Assembly: GCA_950295325.1 (NCBI GenBank)
Contig: OX485806.1
Location: forward strand, 44,263,169 to 44,327,168
Length of the DNA: 64,000 bases
From: Polytrichum commune
Lineage: Eukaryota; Streptophyta; Polytrichopsida; Polytrichales; Polytrichaceae
Direction of reading: 5' to 3'
The notes beneath the pieces were generated by a model. That model saw only the letters and a program-made list of their open reading frames with translations. It had not been told where the DNA came from and did not search any database. Position numbers and translations under genes: made by a program. This document shows, in pieces, positions 20,028 through 64,000 of the stretch (its first letter is position 1; each line of letters starts with the position of its first letter).

Positions 20028-22541
20028 TGGGGGAAGGAGGCCTCGAATCTGAGGCCTCCATTTGGCCGAGGGTTATTGTTTTTGTAAAGGTAAAAGACTA
20101 GTCTACATGACTATGGCTATCGGCCTTGGTATGTTTAGGATAAGTGAATCAGGTGAGGTAAAGGAAGAGGCCTTGGATCCGAGGCCTCCTGTTGGCCGAC
20201 GATTTTGCTTTATAAAACTACCTGTTGGCCGAAGATTTTGCTTTGTATTACCTTGATTTCTCAAACTACATGGAATGTCCACTTGAGTTGCTCTCGGCCT
20301 TGTCTTGATTTGGGTTTAGTGAGTATGTGAGAGGTAGGGTTTCGAGTTGAAGAGAGGATTTTTGAGTTCTCAAACTACATGGAATGTTCACTTGGGTTGC
20401 TCTCGGCCTTGTCTTGCTTTGGGTTAAATGAGCATGTAAGAGGTAGGGTTTACGGTTGAAGCGAGGGCTGTTGAGTTCTCAAACTACATGGACTATTCAC
20501 TTGGGTTGCTCAGGGCCTTGTTTTGATATCTCAAGTCACTATGTGAGAGGAAGGGTTTTAAGTTCACGAGAGGCCTCTTTTGTTTGTAAGTTTGTGCTTG
20601 AAAATTCAAAATGTTCTGTGCACATTTGTTTGCTCTCGGCCATTTCTGGATTTCCTAAGGGCACATGTACGAGCTAGGGGAAGAGGCCTTGGATCCAAGG
20701 CCACTTTTGTTTGTAAGTTTGTGCTTGAAATTTCAGAATGTTATGTGCACATTTGTTTGCTCTCGGCCATTTCAGGATTTCCTAAGCGCACATGCAGGAG
20801 ATAGGGGAAGAGGCCTCGGATCCGAGGCCTCTTTTGTTTGTAAGTTTGTGCTTGAAATTTGAGAATGTTATGTGCACATTTGTTTGCTCTCGGCCATTTC
20901 TGGATTTCCTAAGGGCACATGTACGATATAGGAGAAGAAGCTCGGATCCAAGGCCTCTTTTGTTTCTTGATTTGGGATTGAAAATTTCAGAATGTTATGT
21001 GCACATTTGTTTGCTCTCGGCCATTTTTGGATTTCCTAAGGGCACATGTACGAGCTAGGGGAACAAACCTCGGATTTGAGGCCTCTTTTGTTTGTTGATT
21101 TGAGTTTGAGAATTTCAGAATGTTATTTGTACATTTCTTTGCTCTCGGCCATTTCGGGATTTCCTAAGGGCACATGTACAAACTAGGGGAAGAGGCCTCA
21201 GATCCGATGCCTCTTTTGTTTGTAAGTTTCTGCTTTAAGTTTTAGAATGTTATGTGCACATTTGTTTGCTCTCGGCCATTTCAGGATTTCCTAAGGGCAC
21301 ATGCAGGAGATAGGGGAAGAGGCCTCGGATCCGAGGCCTCTTTTGTTTGTTGGTATGAGTTTGAAAATTTTGGAATGTTATTTGTACATTTGTTTGCTCT
21401 CGGCCATTTCAGGATTTCCTAAGGGCACATGTATGAGCTACGGGAAGAGGCCTCGGATCCGAGGCCTCTTTTGTTTGTTAATTTGGGATTGAAAATTTCA
21501 GAATGTTATGTGCACATTTGTTTGCTCTCGGCCATTTCAAGATTTCCTAAGGGCACATGTACGAGCTAGGGGAAGATGCCTTGGATCCGAGGCCTCTTTT
21601 ATTTGTTGATTTGGGATTGAAAATTTCAGAATGTTATGTGCACATTTGTTTGCTCTCGGCCATTTCAAGATTTCCTAAGGGCACATGTACGAGCTAGGGG
21701 AAGATGCCTTGGATCCGAGGCCTCTTTTATTTGTTGATTTGGGATTGAAAATTTCAGAATGTTATGTGCACATTTGTTTGCTCTCGGCCATTTTTGGATT
21801 TCCTAAGGGCACATGTACGAGCTAGGGGAAGAGGCCTCGGATCCAAGGCCTCTTTTGTTTGTAAGTTTGTGCTTGAAATTTGAGAATGTTATGTGCACAC
21901 TTGTTTGCTCTCGGCCATTTTCGGATTTCCTAAGGGCACATGTACGAGCTAGGGGAAGAGGCCTCGGATCCGAGGCCTCTTTTGTTTGTAAGTTTGTGCT
22001 TGAAATTTGAGAATGTTATGTGCACATTTGTTTGCTCTCGGCCATTTTTGGATTTCCTTATGGCACATGTACGAGCTAGGGGAAGAGGCCTCGGATCCGC
22101 GGCCTGATTTGTTTATTGATTTGGGATTGAAAATTTCAGAATGTTATGTGCGCATGTGTTTGCTCTCGGCCATTTTTGAATTTCCTAAGGGCACATGTAC
22201 GAGCTAGGGGAAGAGGCCTCGGATCCGAGGCCTCTTTTGTTTGTTGATTTGCGATTCAAAATTTCAGAATGTTATGTGCACATTTGTTTGCTCTCGGCCA
22301 TTTTTGGATTTCCTAAGGGCACATGTACGAGCTAGGGGAAGAGGCCTCGGATCCGAGGCCTCTTTTGTTTGTAAGTTTGTGCTTGAAATTTGAGAATGTT
22401 ATGTGCACATTTTTTTGGTCTCGGCCATTTTTGGATATCCTAAGGGCACGTGTACGAGCTAGGGGAAGAGGCCTCGGATCTGCGGCCTCTTTCGTTTGTT
22501 GATTTGGGATTGAAAATTTTAGAATGTTATGTGCACATTTG
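20028..22541 (+). repeat. Satellite-like tandem array, about 127-bp unit with GGATCC palindrome (block 1)
   Basis: From about 20634 to 22541 there are 15 units with a period of 127-128 bp, measured from successive TCTCGGCC positions (20634, 20761, 20888, 21015, 21143 ... 22419). Two unit types are mixed. One reads GTAAGTTTGTGCTTGAAATTTGAG (127 bp, quoted in part) and the other GTTGATTTGGGATTGAAAA (128 bp). Each carries the perfect palindrome GGCCTCGGATCCGAGGCC followed by TTTTGTTTGT, and a conserved ATGTTATGTGCACATTTG. The left edge (20028-20630) has more divergent units with a period near 109 bp. Open frames across it repeat the same peptide and are artefacts. Confidence 0.95.
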
Positions 22542-24771: not shown

Positions 24772-25842
24772 CTCGGCCATTTTTGGATATCCTAAGGGCA
24801 CGTGTACGAGCTAGGGGAAGAGGCCTCGGATCCGCGGCCTCTTTCGTTTGTTGATTTGGGATTGAAAATTTTAGAATGTTATGTGCACATTTGTTTGCTC
24901 TCGGCCATTTTTGGATTTCATAAGGGCACATGTACGAGGTAGGGGAAGAGGCCTCGGATCCGCGGCGTCTTTTGTTTGTTGATTTGGGCTTCAAAATTTC
25001 AGAATGTTATGTGTAGATTTGTTTGCTCTCGGCCATTTCTGGATTTCCTAAAGGCACATGTACGAGCTAGGAGAAGAGGCCTCGGATCCGAGGCCTCTTT
25101 TGTTTGTAAGTTTGTGCTTGAAATTTGAGAATGTTATGTGCACATTTGTTTGCTCTTGGCCATTTTTGGATTTCCTAAGGGCACATGCACAAGCTAGGGG
25201 AGGAGGCCTCGGATCCGAGGCCTCTTTTGTTTGTATGTTTGTGTTTGAAATTTGAGAATGTTATGTGCACATTTGTTTGCTTTCGGCCATTTTTGGATTT
25301 CCTAAGGGCACATGTACGAGCTACGGGGAAAGGCCTCGGAAACGCGGCCTCTTTTCTTTGTTGATTTGGGATTCAAAATTTCAGAATGTTATGTGCACAT
25401 TTGTTTGCTCTCGGCCATTTTTGGATTTCCTAAGAGCACATGTACGAGCTAGGGGAAGAGGCCTCGGAACCGCGGCTTGTTTTGTTTGTTGATTTGGGAT
25501 TGAAAATTTCAGAATGTTATTTGCACATTTGTTTGTTCCTCGGCCATTTTTGGAATTCATAAGGGCACATGTACGAGCTAGGGGAGAAGGCCTCGGATCT
25601 GAGGCCTCTTTTGTTTGTTGATTTGTGATTCAAAATTTCATAATGTTATGTGCACATTTGTTTGCTCTCGGCTATTTTTGGATTTCTTAAGGGCACATGT
25701 ACGAGCTAGGGGAAGAGGCCTCGGATCCGAGGCCTTTTTTGTTTGTAAGTTTGTGCTTGAAATTTGAGAATGTTATGTGCACATTTGTTTGCTCTCGGCC
25801 ATTTCTCAATTTCCTAAGGGCACATGTACGACCTAGGGGAAG
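24772..25842 (+). repeat. Tandem array, block 2
   Basis: About eight and a half further 127-bp-type units of the same family, with the same palindrome (some copies mutated to GGATCCGCGGCC or GGAACCGCGGC). The first unit here shares private variants with the last unit before the insert (GATATCC, GCACGTGTACG, CTTTCG, ATTTTAGAATG). The block ends at the 8-bp target site of the next insertion. Confidence 0.93.
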
Positions 25843-26472: not shown

Positions 26473-26779
26473 AGGGGAAGAGGGCTCGAATCGGAGGCCT
26501 TTTTTGTTTGTATGTTTATGCTTGAAATTTGAGAATGTTATGTGCACATTTGTTTGCTCTCGGCCATTTTTGGATTTCCTAAGGGCACATGTAGGAGCTA
26601 GGGGAAGATACCTCGGATCCGAGGCCTTTTTTGTTTGTAAGTTTGTGCTTTAAATTTGAGAATGTTATGTGCACATTTGTTTGCTCTCGACCATTTCTGG
26701 ATTTCCTAAGGGCATATGTATGAGATAGGGGAAGAGGCTCGGATCCAAGGCCTCTTTTGTTTGTTGATTTGGGATTGAA
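26473..26779 (+). repeat. Tandem array, block 3 (right edge)
   Basis: Two and a half units of the 127-bp family, diverged (TCGAATCGGAGGCC, GGCTCGGATCCAAGG). The array ends at GATTTGGGATTGAA (about 26779), where a coding-like frame begins at once. The array edge therefore coincides with truncation of the following gene remnant. Confidence 0.9.
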
Positions 26780-47340: not shown

Positions 47341-47999
47341 TATAGTGTTGAATGTGCCCCCTCGAGAGCTAGGTTAATAGGTTGGAGCGCAATTACTCCA
47401 TAAGCCACCACGAAAGACAACCCCTTGGTCGCCAAGTGCGTGGCTACATTAAATCTAAACTCCACTCGACTCACATAGTTCGCCCAATCTCCTTGGTCCG
47501 CCCCCACCAAGTTCCTCAAGTATTGCTTCAAGACTCCATTCACACGCTCCATTTTCCCATCCATTTGGGAATGGAAGGCCATGCTAATCCTTAGTTTCAT
47601 TCCGACCTCCTTAGAGAAGTGCATTGAAAATGCACTTGTGAACTTTGGATCTTGATCCCACACAATCACTCTTGGCAACCCGTGGTGCCTCAACCATCCT
47701 TTGAGAAAAGGCTATGCGGTCTCCAACGCGGTGGCGGTTCCCACAATCGGCACCATGTGTGCCAACTTGGCAAACCGCTCTACCATCAACAAGATGGCAT
47801 CATACCCATGTGACTCTGGCAAACTTGTGATCAAGTCCATGTACATACAATGCCATGGCCCCGGCGGGATAGGCAACGGTTGCAAGAAACCGCCTAGCTT
47901 TTGGTAAGAGGTTTGGTTTACTTGGCACTTCATCCAAGCCTTCACAAAGTGGGCTATATCTTCCTTTATGCACCGCCAATGGTACCTCCTTGACACCAT
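47340..47999 (-). pseudogene. Integrase core of the chromovirus
   Basis: Two minus-strand frames (47999-47712 and 47693-47340) form one domain split by a stop near 47710. Seen are the altered zinc region (WMKCQVNQTSYQK, where the first Cys of the CxxC is Trp), the first catalytic Asp in HCMYMDLITSLPESHGYDA, the second in VIVWDQDPKFTSAFSMHF and the Glu in MDGKMERVNGVLKQYLRNL. The DDE order and the final LATKGLSFVVAYGVIAL match Ty3/gypsy integrase. The catalytic triad is kept despite the stop. Confidence 0.92.
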
Positions 48000-49440
48000 T
48001 CTATGGCGGTTTTTTCTTTCTCCTCTACGGCCGACAATAGGACTATCTTATTCCTCCTTCAAAACTGATAGCCTCAACTTGCCTTGTGGCACATACACCC
48101 AACTTTGCTTGCACTTGAACAATCCGTCCACCAACTTAACCTCTTTGAGCACCATGCTCTTGCGAAGCTCACCTAAAAGTTTTTGTGCTTTGGGGTACTT
48201 AATTTATCCCTCCCGTATCTTGCATCACAAGTTTCCTTCGCCGGCACACATTAGCCACAAGGTTTGGATGGTTCTCATTGCTTGGAACTCTTCCCCTCTA
48301 CTTAACGCATCCGGCACCACATTTCCACAGTCCGGTTTGTGGATGAAATCCACCTTCATAAGCGCCAAACTATCATGCCACCGCAATGACTTGGCGCTCA
48401 CTTGCGCTTGTATGTCAAAATTCTTTTAGGACACATTGTCCATGTAAACCTTTGCTTTGTGCGACCCCAAATAGTGTCGTCACATCTTCAAACAATGCAC
48501 TATGGCAAAGAAATTCTTTGTCATGAGTTGGTTGTTTTCTTTGACAACCATCGAGCTTCATACCCCCATATGCAATGGCCATCCATCTTACATCAACAAT
48601 CCGCCATTGGCAAAGTTACTGTCTCCCCTATGCACCTCAAGAGGTTTGTCAAACTCCGCAAACTTGAGCACGGGGCAAAGAGAACTTGGTCTTAAGCTCC
48701 CCAAAGACTTGGTGACAAGCATCATCCCACTTTTGGGATAGCCATTTCTTTCACAAGTCGCACAAGGTCGGATAACCATCAAGCTTTATGCTCCCATATG
48801 CAATGGTCATCCATCTTGAATGAACATCAGCAAATGGCAAAGTCACTCGCCCCCGTATGCGCCTCAAAAGGTTTGTCAAGCTCCGCGAACTTGAACACAG
48901 GTGGCAAAGAGAACTTCATCTTAAGCTCCCCAAAGACTTGGGGACAATGCTCATCCCACTTTTGGGATAGCCCTCTCTTTCACAAGTCGCACAAGGTTCG
49001 ACAACCATTAAGCTTAATGCTCCTATATGCAATGGACATCCATCTTGGATCAACATCCGCCAATGGTAAAGTCCTTCGCCTCCATGTGCATCTCAAAATG
49101 CCTATGAAAACCCAGAAACTTAACCACATCTTGTGAAGAGAACTTGCTCTTGAGCTCCCCAAATGCTTGGTGACAAGGCTCATCCCACTCTTGGGATAGC
49201 CTTTTTTTTCAACAAGTTGACTAAGGTCCTAGCAACCTTAGAAAAACCTTGAATGAAGTGTTGGTAGTAGTTGGTTAGGCCAACAAATGACCTAAGCCTT
49301 TTTCTTGAGTCAAGGGCCAATTATCCTCTTGGATTGCCTTGACATTTTTCATGTTCATCCACCAACTTCCTTTGTCACCACATACCTCAAGAACTCAATC
49401 TCTCGTTGAGCAAAGTTGTTTTTCACTCCTTGGCGGTAAC
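48000..49440 (-). pseudogene. Reverse transcriptase end and RNase H of the chromovirus, with internal triplication
   Basis: Minus strand from 49440: NNFAQREIEFLRYVVTKEVG and, about 140 bp on, LRSFVGLTNYYQHFIQGFSK, the RT thumb/connection. The segment with the PVLKFAEFDKPLEVHRG-type RNase H start and the DGHCIWE-type end then occurs three times (about 49200-49026, 49026-48797 and 48797-48569), each about 228 bp. Remaining RNase H to the integrase link is present but full of stops (for example near 48300-48450). RNase H removes the RNA strand during reverse transcription; the triplication would not leave a functional fold. Confidence 0.82.
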
Positions 49441-52437: not shown

Positions 52438-53237
52438 TGAGAAATTAAGGTATTTGGATTTCGGAAGAGGCAAGTATCGCAAGGAAAGTTTGCAGGAGTA
52501 TCCGAGAACACGCGGAGGGCGTGGGATTGCGGTAAATTTGAGGTCGGTTTATTCTTCCACCACATTGGATTAGGGAGAGGTGCTTGGCATAAGAGGTTGA
52601 TTTGATTTTCTTTTGGTTAAAAAGAAAAGAAATTTAGGCGATGAAATTTAAGCCATCACACACTTAAATTTTTTAGGTACAAGTTGTGGGTGTCATGATT
52701 CATTTAGGAAAATTTAAATGGGATTGCCGAGGGATTGCCACTAAAAATTACTTGGCACATAGAATCACCATGTAATTGTTAAGGTCGAATTGTGTTTAGC
52801 AACACAGACTCCGGAGATTGTTGTGAGAACGAGTTTTTATGTTATTAAGGGAAGATGAAGAATGTGCTTATGTGCCAATTTTTTCATGGCAACAAGGATA
52901 TCTTACGCTTGACCACCAACCACAACCAAGTGCCCGTTATACGCGGTCCATTTGATTTGGTGGTGGTTGTAGGTGCAGGTTGTCTTTCACATTTTGACAT
53001 TTTATTTTGATTCCGTATTAGTATAGGTTTTTGGCTCTAGTAACCAAACCCATTGTGGGTCTATTGTAACAACTCGGAGCCAATATTATTGTTCTCCATC
53101 TCCAAGGGCATTGGAAGATTGATCTTCTTCCCTCTCGGATGTTGAACCAGTCGTAAGACCCGACAAGGCTTTTCAGCCTACTTCGGCATGGGGAATTGCA
53201 TTCGGTCTCATGTTCTTCAAGTGGGGACCTTTGACGA
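52438..53237. other. Unassigned DNA and possible leader of the MTase-bearing element
   Basis: No recognised coding sequence from 52438 to about 53000. From about 53040, sequence such as CTATTGTAACAACTCGGAGCC precedes the gag-like frames and may be leader, but no LTR or primer binding site was found. Confidence 0.4.
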
Positions 53238-54950
53238 TATGAAGGAGGAGACGCAACGACGAATCCAAGACTGATTTTACAGTCGAGCTGGGATCATTTC
53301 CCTACAATATTGGAAAATTTGGTTTAGGACGTGAATGCAGGAGAAACATCAACGTAATACTAATTTTAATGATTGGTATGCGTTTAAGCTTTTGCCCTAG
53401 AATTTTGAGCATGAGACATTCCAAATTTATGAACAATGGACAAATGCTCATTGGATGAAGTTTGCCAGGTGGAGCAGTATTGGGAGATGCTGATAGAATT
53501 GTTTTCTGCATTAAAAAAGGGCATAACTATCAGTTCATTGGTCGCTCCTGTGGTGAAGACAGAGCAAACAAAGGGTGTCTTTGTAGTAGATGTGGATAGG
53601 TGTTACCTAGGTGGCATAGCTTCTGTAGGAAATCCGCCAGATTTTGATCTTCTACATGAATATAACTTCATTTGCAAGAGGAATATGGAGGTTTCCGTCG
53701 GGATCAAATGCAACGGATCCAAGATTTTAGGCGGCAGAATGACGACATGTCTCGTATCATATACACAAGATTGGAGAGATTTGCCAAGGAATCTAGAGGT
53801 GTTTTTGCAGAGAGCCAATTAATGAAGGTTTTTTTTTGTCAAAAATTGAGAAACGCCTCATTGACTTAGTGTTGCCCATGATCATCATGGATTATGATGG
53901 GTGGACGACACTTGTAGAGGCATTCGCCATTGTGAAACAGTGTGATTGTGCCTTGTGTCAATTCAATGCCATTGATTTGTTGTCCTTGCTAGTGGATTCT
54001 TGCAAATTTTGAAAGACTTCGGTTGTGACTACAAGATTGGTAAAGGCAGAAGACAAGACTTTGTATTATTGGGCTTGTGGACAGTGGAACCATCCTAAGA
54101 ATAATTTTCTTTCAAAGCAAAAGCAGGTTGACACCGCGAATCATCCAAAGCGGAAGCTAGTTGTTTCCGCTAACAATTCAATGAAGAAGGCCGATAAACA
54201 TTTACCAAAGCAGTTGAAGTGTTCATTGTGGGCAGAACAATCACGCGGTGAAAACTTGCTTCGTTCTCCATTAAAAAAATGCATTTTTTTGAGTGGGAAA
54301 AGACGTTGGAGGCAAAGCTTGGCACCTTGGAGGTGAGGTTCAAGAATTTGGTGTCAATTGGCCAAATATTGGAATCACCAGCTCCACCCGGAGCTAAGGC
54401 TAGGTCGTCGACTCTCGATAACTATATATTTGAGGCTTCGGGGGAGGTGATGAGTTGGTAGTTGTAACACGTGTTTTTATATTCAATCTTAAGATATCTT
54501 TGACCACAAAGGAGGCTGTTGAGACCATTTGGGCTCGTGACAATGGTCCCGTGGATCAAATTGGTTAGGCGCATCTGCCATTGCCTTTTGGAATGGTAGA
54601 TGTTGTCCAATATATCAATGGCCAAAATTCGAGCATGGAAGATTCAAATCCGTCGATTGACATGGTGCACACACCTTTGTTTACAATATTGGAGTGGTCG
54701 TCACCCGGCATCCAAATGGTTAAATTGTTCTACTTAGTAGGTAGGATTTTGGAAGGCAAGGCATCCTTGTCTTCATTCATTGTGGCTTAAGCCACTGCAA
54801 ACCTCCCTGCCATTGAGGATCTTGAAGAAACAACCAAACAACGAGTGAGGCTTGTGGCGGAGGCCATTGCATCTTTTGATGCACACACTTTAGACGACAA
54901 AGGGCCGACCACATCTAACAACTCATCCAAATCCGCGGGGGTAGCTTATT
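53238..54950 (+). pseudogene. Gag region of the methyltransferase-bearing retroelement (family D)
   Basis: Reading moves between frames. Seen are a start-like MKEETQRRIQD (53240); a WYAFKLLP...HETFQIYEQWTN stretch; a Cys/His-rich module (about 53540-53635, C...GCLCSRCG...PRWHSFC); and RIIYTRLERFAKESRGVFA. Then come LIDLVLPMIIMDYDGWTTLV and a degenerate zinc knuckle KTLYYWACGQWNHPKNNFLS (usual form C-x2-C-x4-H-x4-C, with one Cys lost). Next is a heptad-like LEAKLGTLEVRFKNL and, near 54590, VVQYINGQNSS from the protease-side region. Gag packages element RNA. Stops and frameshifts show great age. The region is interrupted at 54951 by a family A LTR and continues in register at 55929. Confidence 0.72.
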
Positions 54951-55923
54951 TGTCGCGCACCTCTCCATGAGGAGTGCCCGAAAGACCATGGGCACAAAGG
55001 GGACCCCGGAGTGACACCCGAGACTTGTGGCGCCGTTGGTGAGAGGGTCCAAGTGATCCTAGTGTGGGTGAGGGCCCCGGGCGTTGGGAACGCCTCCCAC
55101 CCACCAAGACTAGGAGGCACGAGGCTAAGGCCATAAGCTATGCGTAGCTTATGGTGTGGTGATTTTATAAAGCTCAACAACACCTCAATCGGAGGCGTGA
55201 GCTAGGAGTTATGGAAATTTGAGTGGGGCGTTGTCCTGGGACAGCGCCCTGGTACAGCAGTGCCTGGGAGTGATTCCCAGCACTTCCAAGGTTTAAACAG
55301 GCATAACTTCATCAATAATTGCTTGAATGGAGCAAGTGAGGAGTCCATCAGCATCTACGTGAAGCGTAGATGAAGATGAAGTGGTTGGTTGTTAGCATCC
55401 AACATCATACAAGGAAGTTATGATGGTCTGAAGCTTTTGGGAGCTTCTAGGCTCAGCGGCTAAGGGAAAATGTCTACTTGGCCCAACTCTTGGCAGAGAG
55501 ACAAAAGGTTTCTTCACGGTGGGGTAGGGGCCCCGCGTAAAGTCGTAGAGGCTTATATGGGCGAGGTGGTGTGGCCTCACCCACCCGAGGCCGAACGGCA
55601 CGGCCTCTATGGGCATTGGCCCAATGTGAGGCCATAGTTGCCTAGTACGCTTCGGGTTGTTGTAGTGTTGCTCCGGCAACGCGATGATCAACATAGGATT
55701 GGACTTCCATGGATGAAAGTCCACATGGAAGAAATGGGTTACTGATTAAGGGGTGAGTCCCGAAAGCAAAGTAGGAGGTTTGGTTCCCCTCGTATGAACT
55801 ATAAGGTCCGGGGTAGGAGGAGCTAACCATTAGCATGGCGGAATGTGAAGGGTTACCACTCGTAACCTTTGCTAGAAATGAAAATTGGCAAGATTGTCAA
55901 GGGAGTTAGCAAGGGTTGTGACA
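54951..55923 (+). mobile_element. Solo LTR of family A (copy in the family D element, first)
   Basis: 973 bp, TGTCGCGCACC to GGGTTGTGACA. It is flanked by TTATT on both sides (54946-54950 and 55924-55928), a perfect 5-bp target duplication. It contains a TATA-like CTTATATGGG near 55551 and the GGCGCTGTCC hairpin type near 55228. The host element reads on across the insertion. Confidence 0.93.
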
Positions 55924-55928
55924 TTATT

Positions 55929-56741
55929 TGTCGAATATAACTGCTAGAGATATTTGTGAGTGCTGCGACATTCGACTCGGCATCATGTGTATGGTGAATG
56001 ATACGGACATTTTGGTGGTCAGTCATGCTGGGGGCAATGCTATTTGGGTTGCACCCCAATGTATGATGATGAACTCGGGTTTGCAACCAGTTATGATCGG
56101 CAAAAAACTTGCCCAGGAATTACGGTTGATGGCCAATGAGTTGGTTTTTTGCCCCTTTATCATCGTCATCTCTATTGGCCAAGTGGAGCGGACCACTGGT
56201 TACATTCGGTAGCCACTACAGTTATGCTACCGCGTGAAGCCTGAAGATCCACCCACATCTTTTTTCTTAGGTGTGCGGTGACAAATATGACCAATTATGA
56301 TATTTAAGTTGGTCAGTAAGCACTCTATCCCTTGGGTTTTGGTTTGGACAACTGGACTGAAGAAACTTATATCCGACCTGGTTGGTCGGCTGGAGACGAC
56401 CATAAAGAATTTACTCTTGTGGCATTTGTGGCGACTGTGACCATAGCACCTTTATCCATGGTTTTTGGATGTGGTGTTATTGTGGATATATTGTCATATG
56501 TTTTCGTATTATTGGAGGAGTCATTGGCATTCATGAGAAATGTTGAGGATCAACGGGAGATGTCACCTCAAGGTGCATTGGTGCATTATTCCAAAGATCA
56601 TCTTCTTCCATGGCGCAATTTTGCCGACCTATTCCAAAGGTGTAAGGACATTGTCTTCTCTCTCGGTTCTATAACACCAGTGATCTGTGGTACCTCATCG
56701 GCGTTGGCACGTACTATCTCATGGCGTCCGCCAGACAAGGG
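55929..56741 (+). pseudogene. Protease-like and spacer region of the family D element
   Basis: About 55990-56212 encodes NSGLQPVMIGKKLAQELRL, resembling an aspartic-protease active site of the D-S-G-A type with the Asp changed to Asn, followed by FCPFIIVISIGQVERTTGY. After stops and shifts, 56332-56740 encodes LGFGLDNWTEETYIRPGWSA and TIAPLSMVFGCGVIVDIL, ending SWRPPDKG. A one-base frameshift at about 56740 leads directly into the methyltransferase motif I. The function of the spacer is unknown. Its conservation of readable protein suggests a real polyprotein portion. Confidence 0.68.
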
Positions 56742-57844
56742 ATTCCTTTGGTGGAACTGTTTGGAGGCATCGAAACAAGATTGGCAGCCGCGTTGGAGGC
56801 TGGCCTCAGGGTTTGCAAATATGTATGTGTGGATGACAGTCAGGTGTCCACCTGTGTGGCTCGTCACCATATCCATTAGTTGATGGTATTGCACCCATAG
56901 CTACTACATCCAACTGCCATTTGTGAGTCTTTTGCAAGCCTCCCTCGTGATGATACACTTATCAGCGAGGCATGCTTACAAAAATTGGGTCCCGTGGATT
57001 TGGAGATAGCGGAATGGCCCTGCTAGGGCCACTCACGTGCTAGAGCGGGCCGAGGGTTAGGGGATCCCAGATCTAGTTTTTTTGGGGACCTCATCCGACC
57101 TATGTAATGGTGGTATGCCTACCAACCTTCCACTGCAAGGTACATATTCGAGAATGTACCTCTGCTGGGAGATTCTTGAGACAAGGTGTTGAAAGGCAAA
57201 CATTATATCTGTCAACACCTTGGTGATCCCATTTTTGTGGATGCTACGAGCTTTGGTTCTTATTCCCACCAACCTCGGTGGCTTTGGACCAACCTCGCAG
57301 CGCTATCCATTTTAACTGCAACATTTTCTGCAGTGTCTCCACCTTTTAATCAAGAGGTGGATGCCATTTTGGATCCACACTAGACCCCTTTGTTGGTTGT
57401 CAAGATTATTTACCCTTGTTGGCAATGGTCAACAAAGTGAGGGCACCACGGAGGGTCTTTTCCACCTTTATGACTTTCCCACAGTCATTTGCATTTTGTG
57501 ATCACGGGTCTGGCATGGTGTGGGATGATCACACCAATAGCCATACCGAACCATTGGTTGATGAACAGGAACGTGCCATGGGATTCCGCACGGGCACCAT
57601 AGCAGCTCCTGGCATGTCTGAGAGCCAACGACGCTTTATGTTGGACCAAGCCATGGATCTTAATATCATGGTGTGGAATCTTGGTTTATGCCTTGCATTG
57701 CAACAACATCATGGTGACCAATTGTTGTCTCAAGGGACAGAGGATTCTGGTCAGGGAGCACATCAATCCACATTCATGAAGGAGGAAATTAACGCCATGG
57801 TTGGAGAGACCAAACGAATCTCTCAATTCGAGCAACAAGTAATG
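56742..57844 (+). pseudogene. C5-cytosine DNA methyltransferase domain of the family D retroelement
   Basis: Motifs of C5-DNA methyltransferases occur in the normal order. Motif I is VELFGGIETRLAAALEAG (about 56751-56804, the AdoMet-binding F-G-G-x-x-T). Next is a CVDDSQV acidic strand. Motif IV is WPC at 57013-57023, where the catalytic Cys is kept but the following Gln is a TAG stop, then GHSRARAGRGLGDPRSS. Motif VI is YIFENVPLLGDS (57141-57176), with ENV. Motif VIII-like is SYSHQPRWLWTNLA (57260-57300). Motifs IX-X are ERAMGFRTGTIAAPG...MDLNIMVW in the open frame from 57416. The enzyme would methylate cytosine in DNA. Many stops look like C-to-T changes (CAG to TAG, CGA to TGA). It sits between the protease region and RT of one element, so it is a pol-linked domain, not a host gene. 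The frame ends in the next LTR. Confidence 0.85.
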
Positions 57845-58816
57845 TGTCGCGCACCTCTCCATGAGGAGTGCCCAAAACATCATGGGCACAAGAAGGACCC
57901 CGGAGTGACACCCGGGACTTGTGGCGCCGTTGGTGAGAGGGCCCAAATGATCCTAGTGTGGGTGAGGGCCCCGGGCGTTGGGAACGCCTCCCACCCAAAA
58001 CGACTAGGAGGCACGAAGGTTAGGCCATTAGCTATGCGTAGCTTATGGCGCATACATTTCATAATGCTCAAGAACACCTCAATCCGAGGTGTGAGCTAGG
58101 AGTTATGGCAATTTGAGTGGGGCGCTGTCCCAGGACAACGCCCTGGTACAACAGTGCCTGGGAGTGATTCCCAGGACTGCCAAGGTTCGAACAGGCATAA
58201 CTTCCTCAATACTTTCTAGAATGAGGTAAGTTAGGAGTCCATCGGCATCTACGTGAAGCGTAAATGAAGATGGAGTGGTTGTTTGTTGCATCAGACATCA
58301 TACAAGGAAGTTATGATGGTCTGAAGCTTTTGGGAGCTTCTAGGCTCAGCGGCTAAGGGAAAATGTCTACTTGGCCCCAACTCTTGGTAGAAAGACAAGA
58401 GTTTTCTTCACGGTGGGGTAGGGGCCCGGCGTAGAGTCCTAGAGGTTTATATGGGTGAGGTGGTGTGGCCTCACCCACCCGAGGCCGAACGGCACGGCTT
58501 CCATGGGCATTGGCCCAATGTGAGGCCATAGTTGCCTAGTACGCTTCGGGTTGTTGTAATGTTGCTCCGGCAACGCGATGATCAACATAGGATTGGACTT
58601 CCATGAATGGAAGTCCACATCTAAGGATTGGTTACTAATTAAGGGGTGAGTCCCAAAAGCAAAGTAGGAGGGTTGGTTCCCCTCGTATGAACTTAAAGGT
58701 CTGGGGTAGGAGGAGCTAACCATTAGCATGGCGGAATGTGAAGGGTTAGCGCTCGTAACCTTTGCTAGAAATGAAAATCGGCTAGATTGTTAAGGGGGCT
58801 AGCAAGGGTTGCGACA
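57845..58816 (+). mobile_element. Solo LTR of family A (second)
   Basis: 972 bp, TGTCGCGCACC to GGTTGCGACA, flanked by TAATG on both sides (57840-57844 and 58817-58821). It interrupts the end of the methyltransferase region in the same orientation as its neighbours. Confidence 0.94.
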
Positions 58817-58821
58817 TAATG

Positions 58822-59174
58822 AAGGAGCTTTGAGCTGAACGGGTTTATACTGCTTTGGCTTGTTCGCCTCCGGTGGTGGCTTCATCATCACATATTGGTG
58901 GCAATGAAGGAAAACCAGATTCTATTGGTGGCAATGAGGTTGGGGACATGGTTAATGTCCCTTCCTCTTAGTAGTGGTTAGAGTTTGTACCAGCATTAGG
59001 TGTCTGCATTAGAAAGGGAGACCATAGAGTTTGATGATTTGCCATTGGAATTTGGCCCTCATCTCACTTGTGCTGAGGCAGGAAAGGTATGAGTGTTCAT
59101 TTGCTTGTACTATAGGTGTTCTATTTTTAACCTTCAAGATCTTGAAGGCTGTAAGGAAAACTCATCTACATTCA
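58822..59174 (+). pseudogene. Methyltransferase-to-RT linker of the family D element
   Basis: Degenerate coding sequence with readable pieces: SPPVVASSSHIGGNEG, then DLPLEFGPHLT-like residues around 59035 and NLQDLEG near 59135. It joins, across the third LTR, to the RT start at 60149. No domain is recognised. Confidence 0.55.
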
Positions 59175-60148
59175 TGTCGTGCACCTCTCCATGAGGAGTG
59201 CCCGAAACACCATGGGCACAAGGGGGACCCCGGAGTGACACCCGGGACTTGTGGCGCCGTCGGTGAGAGGGCCCAAGTGATCCTAGTGTGGGTGAGGGCC
59301 CCGGGCGTTGGGAACGCCTCCCACCCACGAAGACTAGGAGGCGCAAGGGTAAGGCCATGAGTTATGCGTAGCTCATGGCGTGGTGATTCTAGAAAGCTCA
59401 AGAACACCTCAATCGGAGGTGTGAGCTAGGAGTTATGGCCATTTGAGTGGGGCGCTGTCCCGGGACAGCGCCCTGGTACAGCAATGCCTGGGAGTGATTC
59501 CCGGGACTGCCAAGGTTCAAACAGGCATAACTTGCTCAAGACTTGCTCAAATGGGGCAAGTGAGGGGTCCATCGGCATCTACGTGAAGCGTAGATGAGGA
59601 TGGAGTGGTTGTTTGTTATGATCAGACATCATACAAGGAAGTTATGATGGTCTGAAGCTGCTGAGGGGTTCTAGGCCCAGCAGCTAAAGGAAAATGTCCA
59701 CTTGGCCCCAACTCTTGGTAGAGAGACAAGAGGTTGGTTGACGGTGGGGTAGGGGCCCCGCGTGAAGTCCTAGAGGCTTATATGGGTGAGGTGGTGTGGC
59801 CTCACCCACCCGAGGCCGAACGGCAAGGCCTCGATGGGCTTTGGCCCATTGTGAGGCCATAGTTGCCTAGTATGGTTCGGGTTGTTGTAGTGTTGCTCCG
59901 GCAACGCGATGATCAACATAGGATTGGACTTCCATGGATGGAAGTCCACATTGGGGAAATGGGTTACCGATTAAGGGATGAGTCCCGAAAGCAAAGTAAG
60001 AGGGTTGGTTCCCTCCTATGAGCTATATGGTCCGGGGTAGGAGGAGCTAACCATTAGCATGGCGGAATGCGAAGGGTTAGCGCTCGTAACCTTTGCTAGA
60101 ATTGAAAATTGGCAAGATTGTCAAGGGGGGCTAGCAAGGGTTGCGACA
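59175..60148 (+). mobile_element. Solo LTR of family A (third)
   Basis: 974 bp, TGTCGTGCACC to GGTTGCGACA, flanked by ATTCA on both sides (59170-59174 and 60149-60153). Same orientation as the two preceding copies. The host reading (…SSTFIQ / LKDDHP…) continues across it. Confidence 0.94.
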
Positions 60149-60422
60149 ATTCAGCTGAAGGACGACCATCCTATTTTTGGTAGACCTTACATGCTTAGTG
60201 TTTTCGAAAGGATTGGTGTCTAAGTTTGTTGCCAAGAGTTCTTGGCAGCAAGGCTTATTGAACTCTCCAACGGGAATATGCTTGTGCTATGGTTATGCCA
60301 TCGAAGGAGGATATCTTTGGCAATTGGACGGAAAACGGATGTGCGAGGATTATCATCCAGTTAACTACAAGACCAAATCATATTGATATCCCATGCCAAT
60401 CTTGGAGGAGTTGTTTGATGCC
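60149..60422 (+). pseudogene. Start of Ty3/gypsy-type reverse transcriptase (family D), truncated
   Basis: Right after the third LTR the translation gives QLKDDHPIFGRPY, then in overlapping frames VSKFVAKSS, VMPSKEDIFGNWTENG and a CEDYHPVN-type motif with KSYWYPMPI-like and LEELFDA residues. This matches the first RT motifs of Ty3/gypsy elements (the ...VPKKDG.WR.CVDYR.LN... region). It stops at 60422 where a family B LTR begins, so the rest of RT, RNase H and integrase are missing. It proves that the methyltransferase domain lies upstream of a gypsy-type RT. Confidence 0.8.
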
Positions 60423-60681
60423 TGTGAGCCAAAAATGGTGCCCCACATGTGTTCATAACCCTTTGAAACTATTAAAAGTTATGTTTTGATGTTTTATGAT
60501 TATTCACAAAAATATAAAAAGAGTGAGGCTTGAGTGAAGTTATGTTTAGACCTTAGGTTGATTAGAAGTTTAGCGGTGTGAAGAAAATTCCTTAGTTAGG
60601 TGAGCATAGTGTGTGGTGAACCAAGGATGGCTCCTTGAGTTAAATGTTTGAATTAGGATCTATGTTGTTGGTTTAAGAGTT

Positions 60682-62143: not shown

Positions 62144-63220
62144 CAAAGCGGAAACTAGAAGCAAGACTTGGAGGCAACTAGAAGATTTGGAAGGCGATTA
62201 GGAGGACTTGGAGTTGGACACGAGTATGGAAGGTGCGCTCGAGGGAGGTAAGTATTTCGTGTTTAAATTTTGATTGGATAGTATAGTTGTTTTGGAATGA
62301 ATTGCATTTGATTCATGCAAATTCATTTATGGATGGAATGCGGCTAAGGTATATGTTAAACTCTCTTGGGATGGCATAACAAGATCACAATAATAGGATT
62401 CGAATTAGTTTACTAAGAGTTAGAGGGATAATCAAATTTTAGGAAATCCAACTTTGACATTCACCTCGGGGTGAGTGTCTAAGTTCTTGAACTAGGGATT
62501 GTTACTTTTGAATTACAATTGCTAGGGTGGTTATTGTGTTGTATCAATCACAGTCGAGTGCAAGTGCTAACTTACAAGAGGAATCGAATTGCTTGAGGTA
62601 AGCATATTCTTCAAAGTGAGAAGACTAATTAATTAAGGAAAGATTTTCGTACTCGTGTTTGTCGTTATCCGTTGTAGAGGGTAATTCCTGAATCATAGCA
62701 TCATGTTGAGGACAAGAGGGTGATGCCTCGGTCCTTAATGTGGTGCATGACAAAGGTCAGCCCCTCACTCTCGGTATCGTGGTTAGTGTCAATTCAAGGA
62801 GTGGCACGGAGGTGATTCTCCGGCTTGACTAAGAATTGACACGAACATGCCTATCCCTTGTTTGGGATTTTTCACTTCAGTGGGCTTGCAGGATCTCTTT
62901 CCTCACCTCCATAATTTATAAGTCAAACCAAGGGAAGTCGGTGAGGAGTGTGTTTGGTCAAGTAAGGGTTGATCGATTCTTTATGGAATGCAAGGTAAAC
63001 TCGATCCCAAAAACCAAGTTTGACATTAGGATTAGAAAGACCTAGACGTAGGAGGACATCATCTGGAATAAGCGAAGGATTAGAAGAAGTGGATGGTAGA
63101 ATATAAAGTTATTTGAACGTTGAGCCTAAATCATTGTTAGATACATTAGAATCGGAGGTTTAACTTGAGGAACATGTTATCCCTTCCAAGTTGAGTGGTG
63201 AAACTTCATAAAAAAATAAC
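62144..63220 (+). mobile_element. Family B leader and decayed gag N-terminus
   Basis: Matches the minus-strand leader 34840-33960 (for example CCTTAATGTGGTGCATGAC). From about 62986 a frame MECKVNSIPKTK corresponds to the start of the gag at 33955 (MQGKTRSQKPR), but it is broken by several stops before 63221. Confidence 0.78.
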
Positions 63221-64000
63221 GTGCTTGGGGAAGAAATTCCAATAAACGTTGATAGGGGGTTACAGGGGAGCGCACCGGCCACCATGGATCATGATCGAGG
63301 GACGGATCCACCACCCATACCTCCTATGCCACCCATTGATCCATTGGTTAGGCCGAGAGGCTTACCAATCGTGGTTCCACAAAACTTACAAGCGGTGGAC
63401 ATGCCTTCCCACCTCCCTAAGTTTTATGGAACTAAGGATGAGGATCCTTCTAGGCATATGGAGAGGTACATGGAAAGGTTAGCTAGCTCATTCGTGACTA
63501 ATCCGGGGTATTGGCTAGTATGGTTCCCCACCACTTTAGAGGGGGAGGCTTATGAGTGGTATAGGGATCATGCCGAGGGACATTTTAGAGGATGAGACCA
63601 ATTACAAAGGGAATTCTTGAATGAGTTCCGTCCAGAGGTTGGTCAAAGCACGGCGTTGAGGGCATTGGCTTCGATCAAGCAAGGTCGGGAAGAGGAAATT
63701 TTGGCCTACATTAGGAGGTTTGATTTAGTGTGTACACGATTTGTGGGAACCATGCTAAGTGATGACACACTAAGGCAATTCTTTCTTCAAGGATTCTTTA
63801 AGTCGGAACAATTAGGGGAGTTCTTGAGAGAAATCCTCACACATTGGCAGATGCCAAGCGGGCGGCTAGACAAATAGAGAGTTTGGATAAAGATCACGAG
63901 AGATTGTGGAGAAGGGAAGATGAATTGATACCTCAATTCATTCCCATTCGACCTAGGGTGGTCACGGGAGAACCGGTCAAGTATGAGAGCCAAGTTCCTT
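63221..64000 (+). pseudogene. Family B gag (capsid region), continues past the window end
   Basis: MPSHLPKFYGTKDEDPSRHM, LVWFPTTLEGEAYEWYRD, FLNEFRPEVGQSTALRALAS and LAYIRRFDLVCTRFVGTMLS followed by TLRQFFLQGFF form the retrotransposon Gag domain. One nonsense codon (TGA where a Trp is expected) lies at 63593-63595, and a frameshift near 63838 leads to ADAKRAARQIESLDKD and FIPIRPRV in another frame. Gag forms the particle shell. Compared with the copy at 33955-33263 it retains the full C-terminal part. Confidence 0.9.

Follow-up and report, generated by a model that had tools for sequence, protein, structure and literature searches.

A decayed Ty3/gypsy element of Polytrichum commune from an apparently recently active family with a DNMT3-like methyltransferase and a PHD finger

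Overview of the element

The window analysed here, a stretch of 64,000 nucleotides of the Polytrichum commune genome (assembly GCA_950295325.1, contig OX485806.1, positions 44,263,169 to 44,327,168 of the forward strand), contains a decayed Ty3/gypsy retroelement at positions 53063-60425, which comprises gag, a protease (PR), a C5-cytosine methyltransferase (MTase) and the start of a reverse transcriptase (RT). Judged from related sequences, the locus appears to be the dead remnant of one member of a large Ty3/gypsy family that was active recently. It is quite probable that the MTase of this family, made at a Gag-like dose by way of a leaky UAG stop, methylates the complementary DNA (cDNA) of the element itself, and that a PHD finger biases its landing. 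The layout of open copies, their 4-bp target duplications, catalytic residues kept in nearly all relatives and a signal of purifying selection can be read directly from the sequences.

The window copy and an open relative

The gag, PR, linker, MTase and RT start were located in this order by a tblastn search of the window with an open relative, L001; 20 letter shuffles of the window gave no match to L001. The initial annotation had read MTase motifs in order between a protease-like region and a gypsy RT start, once three later long terminal repeat (LTR) insertions were removed, and the search recovered this arrangement. The parts of the element, including its two open reading frames (ORFs), are as follows:

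53063..54950, + strand: decayed gag-like region in several frames (tblastn with L001 gag and ORF1, 28-62% identity)
54951..55923, strand unassigned: solo LTR 1, 973 bp, a later insertion (target duplication TTATT)
55925..56236, + strand: retropepsin-like protease region (45% identity to L001 ORF1 474-577)
56266..56745, + strand: linker between protease and methyltransferase (47% identity to L001 ORF1 588-747)
56736..57763, + strand: decayed DNMT3-like C5-cytosine methyltransferase domain (first frame with six stops; one or more frameshifts)
57845..58816, strand unassigned: solo LTR 2, 972 bp, a later insertion (target duplication TAATG)
58817..59174, + strand: end of ORF1, ORF1/ORF2 stop site (near 58969-58980) and start of ORF2 (59003-59155)
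59175..60148, strand unassigned: solo LTR 3, 974 bp, a later insertion (target duplication ATTCA)
60149..60425, + strand: N-terminal part of a gypsy RT, truncated thereafter (56-86% identity to L001 ORF2 56-160)

The three later LTR insertions first proposed (972-974 bp) are solo LTRs from a different family, each bordered by a perfect 5-bp target duplication, which inserted into an old copy. The RT match itself (tblastn, L001 ORF2 56-160) begins at 60113, and RT similarity stops at ~60425.

L001 (CADCWO010000201.1, 9285 bp) was the one relative among 45 pattern matches in a profile search of bacterial and archaeal genome contigs, and a scan of viral contigs gave 84 pattern matches and no relative of the element. 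L001 is filed as a cyanobacterial metagenome bin though it is a plant-type retroelement, and the content of the contig suggests a eukaryotic contaminant in that bin. Its ORF1, whose start is lost at the contig end, is followed by a TAG and, without a change of frame, by ORF2. Pfam matched ORF1 to DNA_methylase and ORF2 to RVT_1, RNase H, H2C2, rve and a PHD finger (E 4.3e-10), with Asp_protease_2 in ORF1 (E 8e-4) below the Pfam cut-off. With this sub-threshold protease included, the Pol order is PR-RT-RNase H (RH)-integrase (IN), the integrase being of the rve type. Neither ADD, PWWP nor chromodomain appeared among the L001 Pfam matches at E up to 0.1. The contig ends overlap by a 127-bp repeat, as in a circular assembly.

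The methyltransferase domain is DNMT3-like

In a three-frame reading of 56640-57850, the motif I region, the catalytic Cys, ENV and the motif VIII region follow in order along one frame from 56736 to ~57389, which is interrupted by six stops, and motifs IX-X continue in another frame to 57763. The catalytic Cys codon (57021-57023) is directly followed by TAG (57024-57026). With X at the stops, the window MTase piece matched DNMT3A/3B best in the PDB (E 1.1e-5), and its first piece matched 20 database proteins (55-69% identity, best E 3.4e-90). The first frame is 68-69% identical to the relatives P0001/P0002, 54% to L001 and 51% to subfamily 1 of the Polytrichum commune copies described below. 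Pfam PF00145 gave a weak match on the window piece (E 0.16) and matched four of the six relatives tested (E 5.7e-11 to 7.7e-13); it had no match in the other two, P0012 and P0017, both of which are without the N-terminal half. Taken over the PDB, the protein database and Pfam in the relatives, the similarity to C5-methyltransferases is thus significant, as the initial annotation had supposed.

The weak Pfam match of the window piece alone would suit a chance similarity or a chimera, in which a host methyltransferase fragment lies beside an unrelated gypsy fragment. This reading is refuted by the same order of domains in L001 and in 30/30 fetched Polytrichum commune copies, by gag-PR-MTase in named Marchantia proteins and by the shuffles without a match, and we regard it as vanishingly improbable.

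The predicted fold of the L001 MTase domain has DNMT3A/3B as its best PDB match, the fold alignments showing about 18-26% identity; DRM and CMT chains were not among the 50 fold matches listed, which excludes nothing. The motif order is non-rearranged (I-IV-VI-VIII-IX-X), and the domain is closest to DNMT3 by both sequence and fold. By these measures the MTase is DNMT3-like. The DNMT3A/DNMT3B catalytic domains are its best PDB match in sequence and fold and have the same motif order from I to X, but it differs from them in having PCQ in place of PCN and no ADD or PWWP among the L001 Pfam matches. PCN is the catalytic motif of DNMT3, and DNMT3A shows it in the PDB alignment with the window MTase.

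A rearranged DRM-type MTase was considered and excluded, since the motif order of the element is canonical; a host DRM-like gene (L058) has the rearranged motifs, a plant feature. A bacterial or phage origin was likewise rejected: the ten phage enzymes listed of 174 records align to part of the domain at 27-32% identity, and the three phage enzymes placed in the tree fall outside the element MTases. A search for a host DNMT3 with part of DNMT3A as query gave element copies at the top, and the single exon-like match examined was the DRM-like gene, so that a host DNMT3 was neither found nor excluded.

Open copies in the Polytrichum commune genome

The genome searched (G000, 408 Mb, with the window inside it) yielded 117 copies scored of 581 candidates with the L001 MTase as query, and 136 scored of 565 with P0002, which is near the window copy. 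Pooled, the two queries mark at least 222 distinct places, 31 of them common to both; only the best candidates were scored, so that copy numbers are lower bounds and the sample is skewed toward good copies. The P0002 table contains 118 rows at 73-87% identity, termed subfamily 2, to which the window copy belongs, and 18 rows at 63-64%, termed subfamily 1. A stop-free full ORF1 is present in 25 rows, namely 15 of the 117 (1386-codon frame) and 10 of the 118 subfamily 2 rows (1360-1372 codons). PR/linker upstream and RT downstream of the MTase were found in 30/30 best-scoring loci, which places MTase and RT in one element in these copies. Neither of the two outcomes named in the initial annotation as refuting its reading, no significant C5-methyltransferase similarity or MTase and RT never in one element, was therefore observed.

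Ten copies with a long open ORF1 were selected, each retrieved as two pieces. In four of them ORF1 and ORF2 are complete, ORF2 having 1047 codons as in L001; in a fifth ORF2 is complete and the ORF1 frame lacks 30 codons at its start; in the remaining 5/10, ORF2 is broken. These open, young copies in the same genome suggest that the family was recently active. The initial annotation had called the window copy, with its TAG directly after the catalytic Cys, a fossil; this holds for that copy and not for the family. Its suggestion that intact relatives be sought genome-wide was answered by the open copies.

The scored subfamily 2 copies are unevenly spread: 27/118 lie within 18 Mb of the 408-Mb genome (G000:C4 41-59 Mb, with the window at 44.3 Mb), compared with only 4/104 of the other scored copies. 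Stops in the MTase occur in 17/27 subfamily 2 copies inside this interval vs 35/91 elsewhere. It is a block rich in old copies, perhaps of low recombination or sex-linked.

Split repeats and target duplications

Comparison of the 5' and 3' pieces revealed the layout of open copies as [A1]-ORF1(gag-PR-DNMT3-like MTase)-UAG.CARYYA-ORF2(RT-RH-IN-PHD)-[B1]-GC-[A2]-[B2], in which A1 (~437 nt) forms the 5' end and B1 (110 nt)-GC-A2-B2 the 3' end. In place of an ordinary pair of full-length LTRs, the 5' end carries A only and the 3' end B-GC-A-B. The A1...B2 layout with a 4-bp target duplication was found in 7/10 copies. One of the ten ends at B1 with its own 4-bp target duplication (L033/L034, G000:C2:22.81 Mb), a second integrated form without A2-B2, and 2/10 have no recognisable 3' end. 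Between A1 and A2 of the seven A1...B2 copies there are 0-2 mismatches; when gaps are counted, the two are 99.3-99.8% identical in six of these copies and 94.6% in the seventh, which points to young insertions. The junction, with the palindrome GACAGCTGTC and similar flanks, occurs once in L001 too. The 11-letter palindrome pattern alone is present in 24/200 shuffles, so it is the flanks, compared by eye, that carry the argument for the L001 junction.

DIRS/PAT elements have split direct repeats arranged as A1-ORFs-B1-A2-B2, and the present elements share this split-repeat layout. They differ from DIRS/PAT in possessing a DDE integrase (rve), H2C2 and target duplications, with no tyrosine recombinase among the L001 Pfam matches.

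A conserved leaky stop between ORF1 and ORF2

The codons after ORF1 read TAG CAA TCA in L001 and in 29/30 subfamily 1 loci, the remaining one having TAG CAA CCA, and TAG CAA TTA or TAG CAG TTA in 4/5 subfamily 2 loci; the fifth (L054) had no match at the stop site and was not readable. Altogether, 35/36 sites of L001 and the two subfamilies fit UAG-CAR-YYA in frame between the gag-side and pol-side ORFs, the other being the unreadable one, and variation is confined to the R and Y positions. As the 30 subfamily 1 loci are close copies, the independent cases are few and were counted as three, namely L001, subfamily 1 and subfamily 2. UAG-CARYYA is the tobamovirus-type read-through context, and its conservation makes read-through between Gag-PR-MTase and RT-IN-PHD likely.

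A PHD finger behind the integrase

A PHD finger stands behind the integrase in L001 ORF2, in place of a chromodomain, and was seen in both ORF2 ends of Polytrichum commune copies that were examined. Its nearest solved relatives include CHD4, PHF12, UHRF1, KMT2, KDM5A/B and PHF21A, and many PHD fingers of this kind read the N-terminal tail of histone H3. The ADD domain of DNMT3 reads unmodified H3K4, and the PHD finger of the element, as a putative H3 reader, would form an attractive parallel to it. Chromoviruses such as RLG1 of Physcomitrium (PMC7466625) are similarly gypsy elements with a chromatin-reader domain joined to the integrase, but here the PHD finger replaces the chromodomain.

Two positions of the enzyme among relatives

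The relatives fall into two types. Type A (gag-PR-MTase) polyproteins include five Marchantia polymorpha proteins and one Calypogeia fissa protein, the latter having no gag or PR match; both of these hosts are liverworts. In type B (RT-RH-MTase-IN-PHD), the MTase lies between RNase H and integrase; the sole named algal host is the green alga Monoraphidium neglectum, and one type B protein is filed under a bacterial bin. Among the 119 proteins fetched, 46 have RT-RH-MT-IN-PHD in one frame, 48, which are type A ORF1s and fragments, have none of these domains but the MTase, and in 25 the order is different or incomplete, P0044 with MT-RT-RH-IN being one of these.

The MTase tree was built from 73 rows: 31 of type A (28 database proteins over the length limit, L001 and two Polytrichum commune copies), 35 taken from type B without Monoraphidium, P0044, P0052 and five outgroups. 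The outgroup (DNMT3A, the host DRM-like gene and three phage enzymes) is small, has long branches and was flagged by the program. The element MTases stand apart from it with support of 100/99, types A and B each lie on one side of a branch (95/94 and 100/100), and P0044 and P0052 are unplaced. One capture of the MTase followed by relocation is the simpler reading of the two types, not proven. Its rival, separate capture of the type A and type B MTases from host DNMT3 genes, agrees with the different positions in the element, with a tree that includes no plant or algal host DNMT3, and with the precedent of repeated capture in Klebsormidium and dinoflagellates, where the available text calls the charophyte acquisition independent (PMC5890265). 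Set against this are the joint separation of A and B from the outgroup (100/99) and the same kind of PHD finger at the end of most type B proteins and of the examined type A ORF2s, and we consider separate capture unlikely.

Selection, target and proposed mechanism

The catalytic Cys is present in 30/30 type A rows with a letter at that position and in 35/35 type B rows, and in both types almost every row retains this Cys, the Glu of ENV and the arginines of motif VIII. Among young copies, the ratio of nonsynonymous to synonymous polymorphism (pN/pS) is 0.43 for the MTase, 0.28 for RT, 0.57 for PR plus linker and 1.05 for the ORF1 tail; between the L001 and Polytrichum commune MTases, nonsynonymous (dN) and synonymous (dS) divergence are 0.22 and 2.9. 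These values indicate that the MTase is under purifying selection. Such selection, together with the retained residues, argues against a domain that is now structural or nucleic-acid binding and for which methylation is no longer needed. That alternative, which we consider very unlikely, could account for the varying residue before the Cys in the 35 type B rows (E 21, P 8, S 6) and for P0009, which is without the Cys.

On the mechanism favoured here, translation would mostly yield Gag-PR-MTase, and the leaky UAG would add a minority extended by RT-IN-PHD. The MTase would thus be made at a Gag-like dose and could be packed into the particle, where it most likely methylates new cDNA de novo, so that the copy would enter the genome already marked. 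CG methylation is reported for a dinoflagellate relative, SymbioDIRS-Dnmt3, in the available text of PMC5890265. The PHD finger behind the integrase would read the histone H3 tail and bias the landing site.

Several points weigh against this mechanism. Read-through, dose, packaging and H3 binding are deduced from sequence, as is methylation of the element's own cDNA, its likely function. The MTase of type B lies in Pol, so that a Gag-like dose would not be universal. The catalytic motif is PCQ in type A and mostly ECQ in type B vs PCN in DNMT3, and N replaces the Cys in P0009, a short relative kept out of the 31 type A rows by the length filter. In the window the ORF1/ORF2 stop site is decayed and the fit to UAG-CARYYA is lost. 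RT is under stronger selection than the MTase. Among copies, C/T differences are 1.7x commoner at CG sites than at CHH sites; changes of C to other letters, however, are almost equally raised (1.5x), so the excess does not specifically point to methylation, and these differences gave no clear sequence sign of self-methylation. Among published enzymes, SymbioLINE-Dnmt did not methylate DNA in yeast according to the available text (PMC5890265).

The missing methylation trace among Polytrichum commune copies would also suit an MTase that targets RNA or host DNA, for instance silencing competitors or limiting the harm done by the element, and not its own cDNA. In the part of their paper available, de Mendoza et al. 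suggest that LINE-borne DNMTs might methylate RNA and that an element might profit from transposing more slowly (PMC5890265). We hold an RNA or host DNA target to be rather improbable and methylation of the element's own cDNA to be the likelier function. A broader proposal is more tentative and, on balance, somewhat doubtful: that a single green-plant gypsy-type lineage in liverworts, Polytrichum commune and green algae has long kept a DNMT3-like writer with a PHD reader, many members making the writer at a Gag-like dose via the leaky stop, and would mark its own cDNA before reader-guided integration.

Other features of the window

Ten single open frames of the window, scanned with Pfam, matched no MTase or retroelement family, and Rfam gave no match in the window. 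Open gag-like frames at 63212-63877, recognised by eye, apparently represent another gypsy element near the window end, and weak integrase/RT-side matches to L001 ORF2 at 47427-49299 (- strand, 27-38% identity) a further one. Tandem arrays of a 127-128-bp unit occupy 20570-22541, 24772-25842 and 26473-26764, two of them with a 255-bp period too.

Comparison with known elements and significance

DNMT3-bearing gypsy elements were published in 2018 from the streptophyte alga Klebsormidium (de Mendoza et al., PMC5890265), so this kind of element is already known, and the rare algal and dinoflagellate precedent mentioned in the initial annotation is real. As far as the available text describes it, KnitGypsy-Dnmt3 of Klebsormidium nitens resembles the present elements in its gypsy-type Pol and in a non-rearranged DNMT3-type MTase within an element ORF; it is intron-less and under purifying selection, and per the Fig. 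4 legend DIRS-like repeats likewise replace the ordinary LTR pair (PMC5890265). The elements described here, with a DNMT3-type MTase in a gypsy polyprotein and DIRS-like repeats, fit the description of that group. Compared by description, they differ in their hosts (Polytrichum commune, liverworts and a green alga), the PHD finger, UAG-CARYYA between ORF1 and ORF2, the 4-bp target duplications, and the position of the MTase, which in type A precedes the stop and in type B separates RH from IN. No word starting 'PHD', 'read-through' or 'split' occurs in the portion of the main text available (PMC5890265), and no Klebsormidium sequence was identified among the matches to the element. SymbioDIRS-Dnmt3 and SymbioLINE-Dnmt are also retroelements with their own DNMT, but use DIRS or LINE machinery (PMC5890265, available text).

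In the open-licence literature searched, as far as the texts were available, DNMT-bearing retroelements are named only in PMC5890265 and in PMC12344493, which in 2025 mentions DNMT3s in LTR Copia and DIRS elements of streptophytes and dinoflagellates; the available parts of PMC6453930, PMC9915684, PMC10952607, PMC5784723 and PMC7466625 do not mention them. That literature gave no report of members from land plants or chlorophytes, nor of the PHD finger, the leaky stop or the two enzyme positions. What appears new is therefore the wider spread, the PHD finger, the conserved leaky stop and the two enzyme positions, the DNMT3-gypsy kind itself being known. Five Marchantia proteins have DNMT3-like domains; a Marchantia paper of 2018 lists five methyltransferases, and its available text contains no word starting 'DNMT' (PMC5784723).

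The present data suggest that putatively self-marking elements are more widespread than the published green-lineage case would indicate. Plant methylome surveys may have overlooked such element-borne DNMT3-like enzymes. Host genomes silence transposons by DNA methylation, and here a transposon lineage keeps its own de novo type methyltransferase alongside a chromatin reader. With open young copies available and hosts known by name, for example Marchantia, it becomes testable whether self-methylation would help or harm the transposon.
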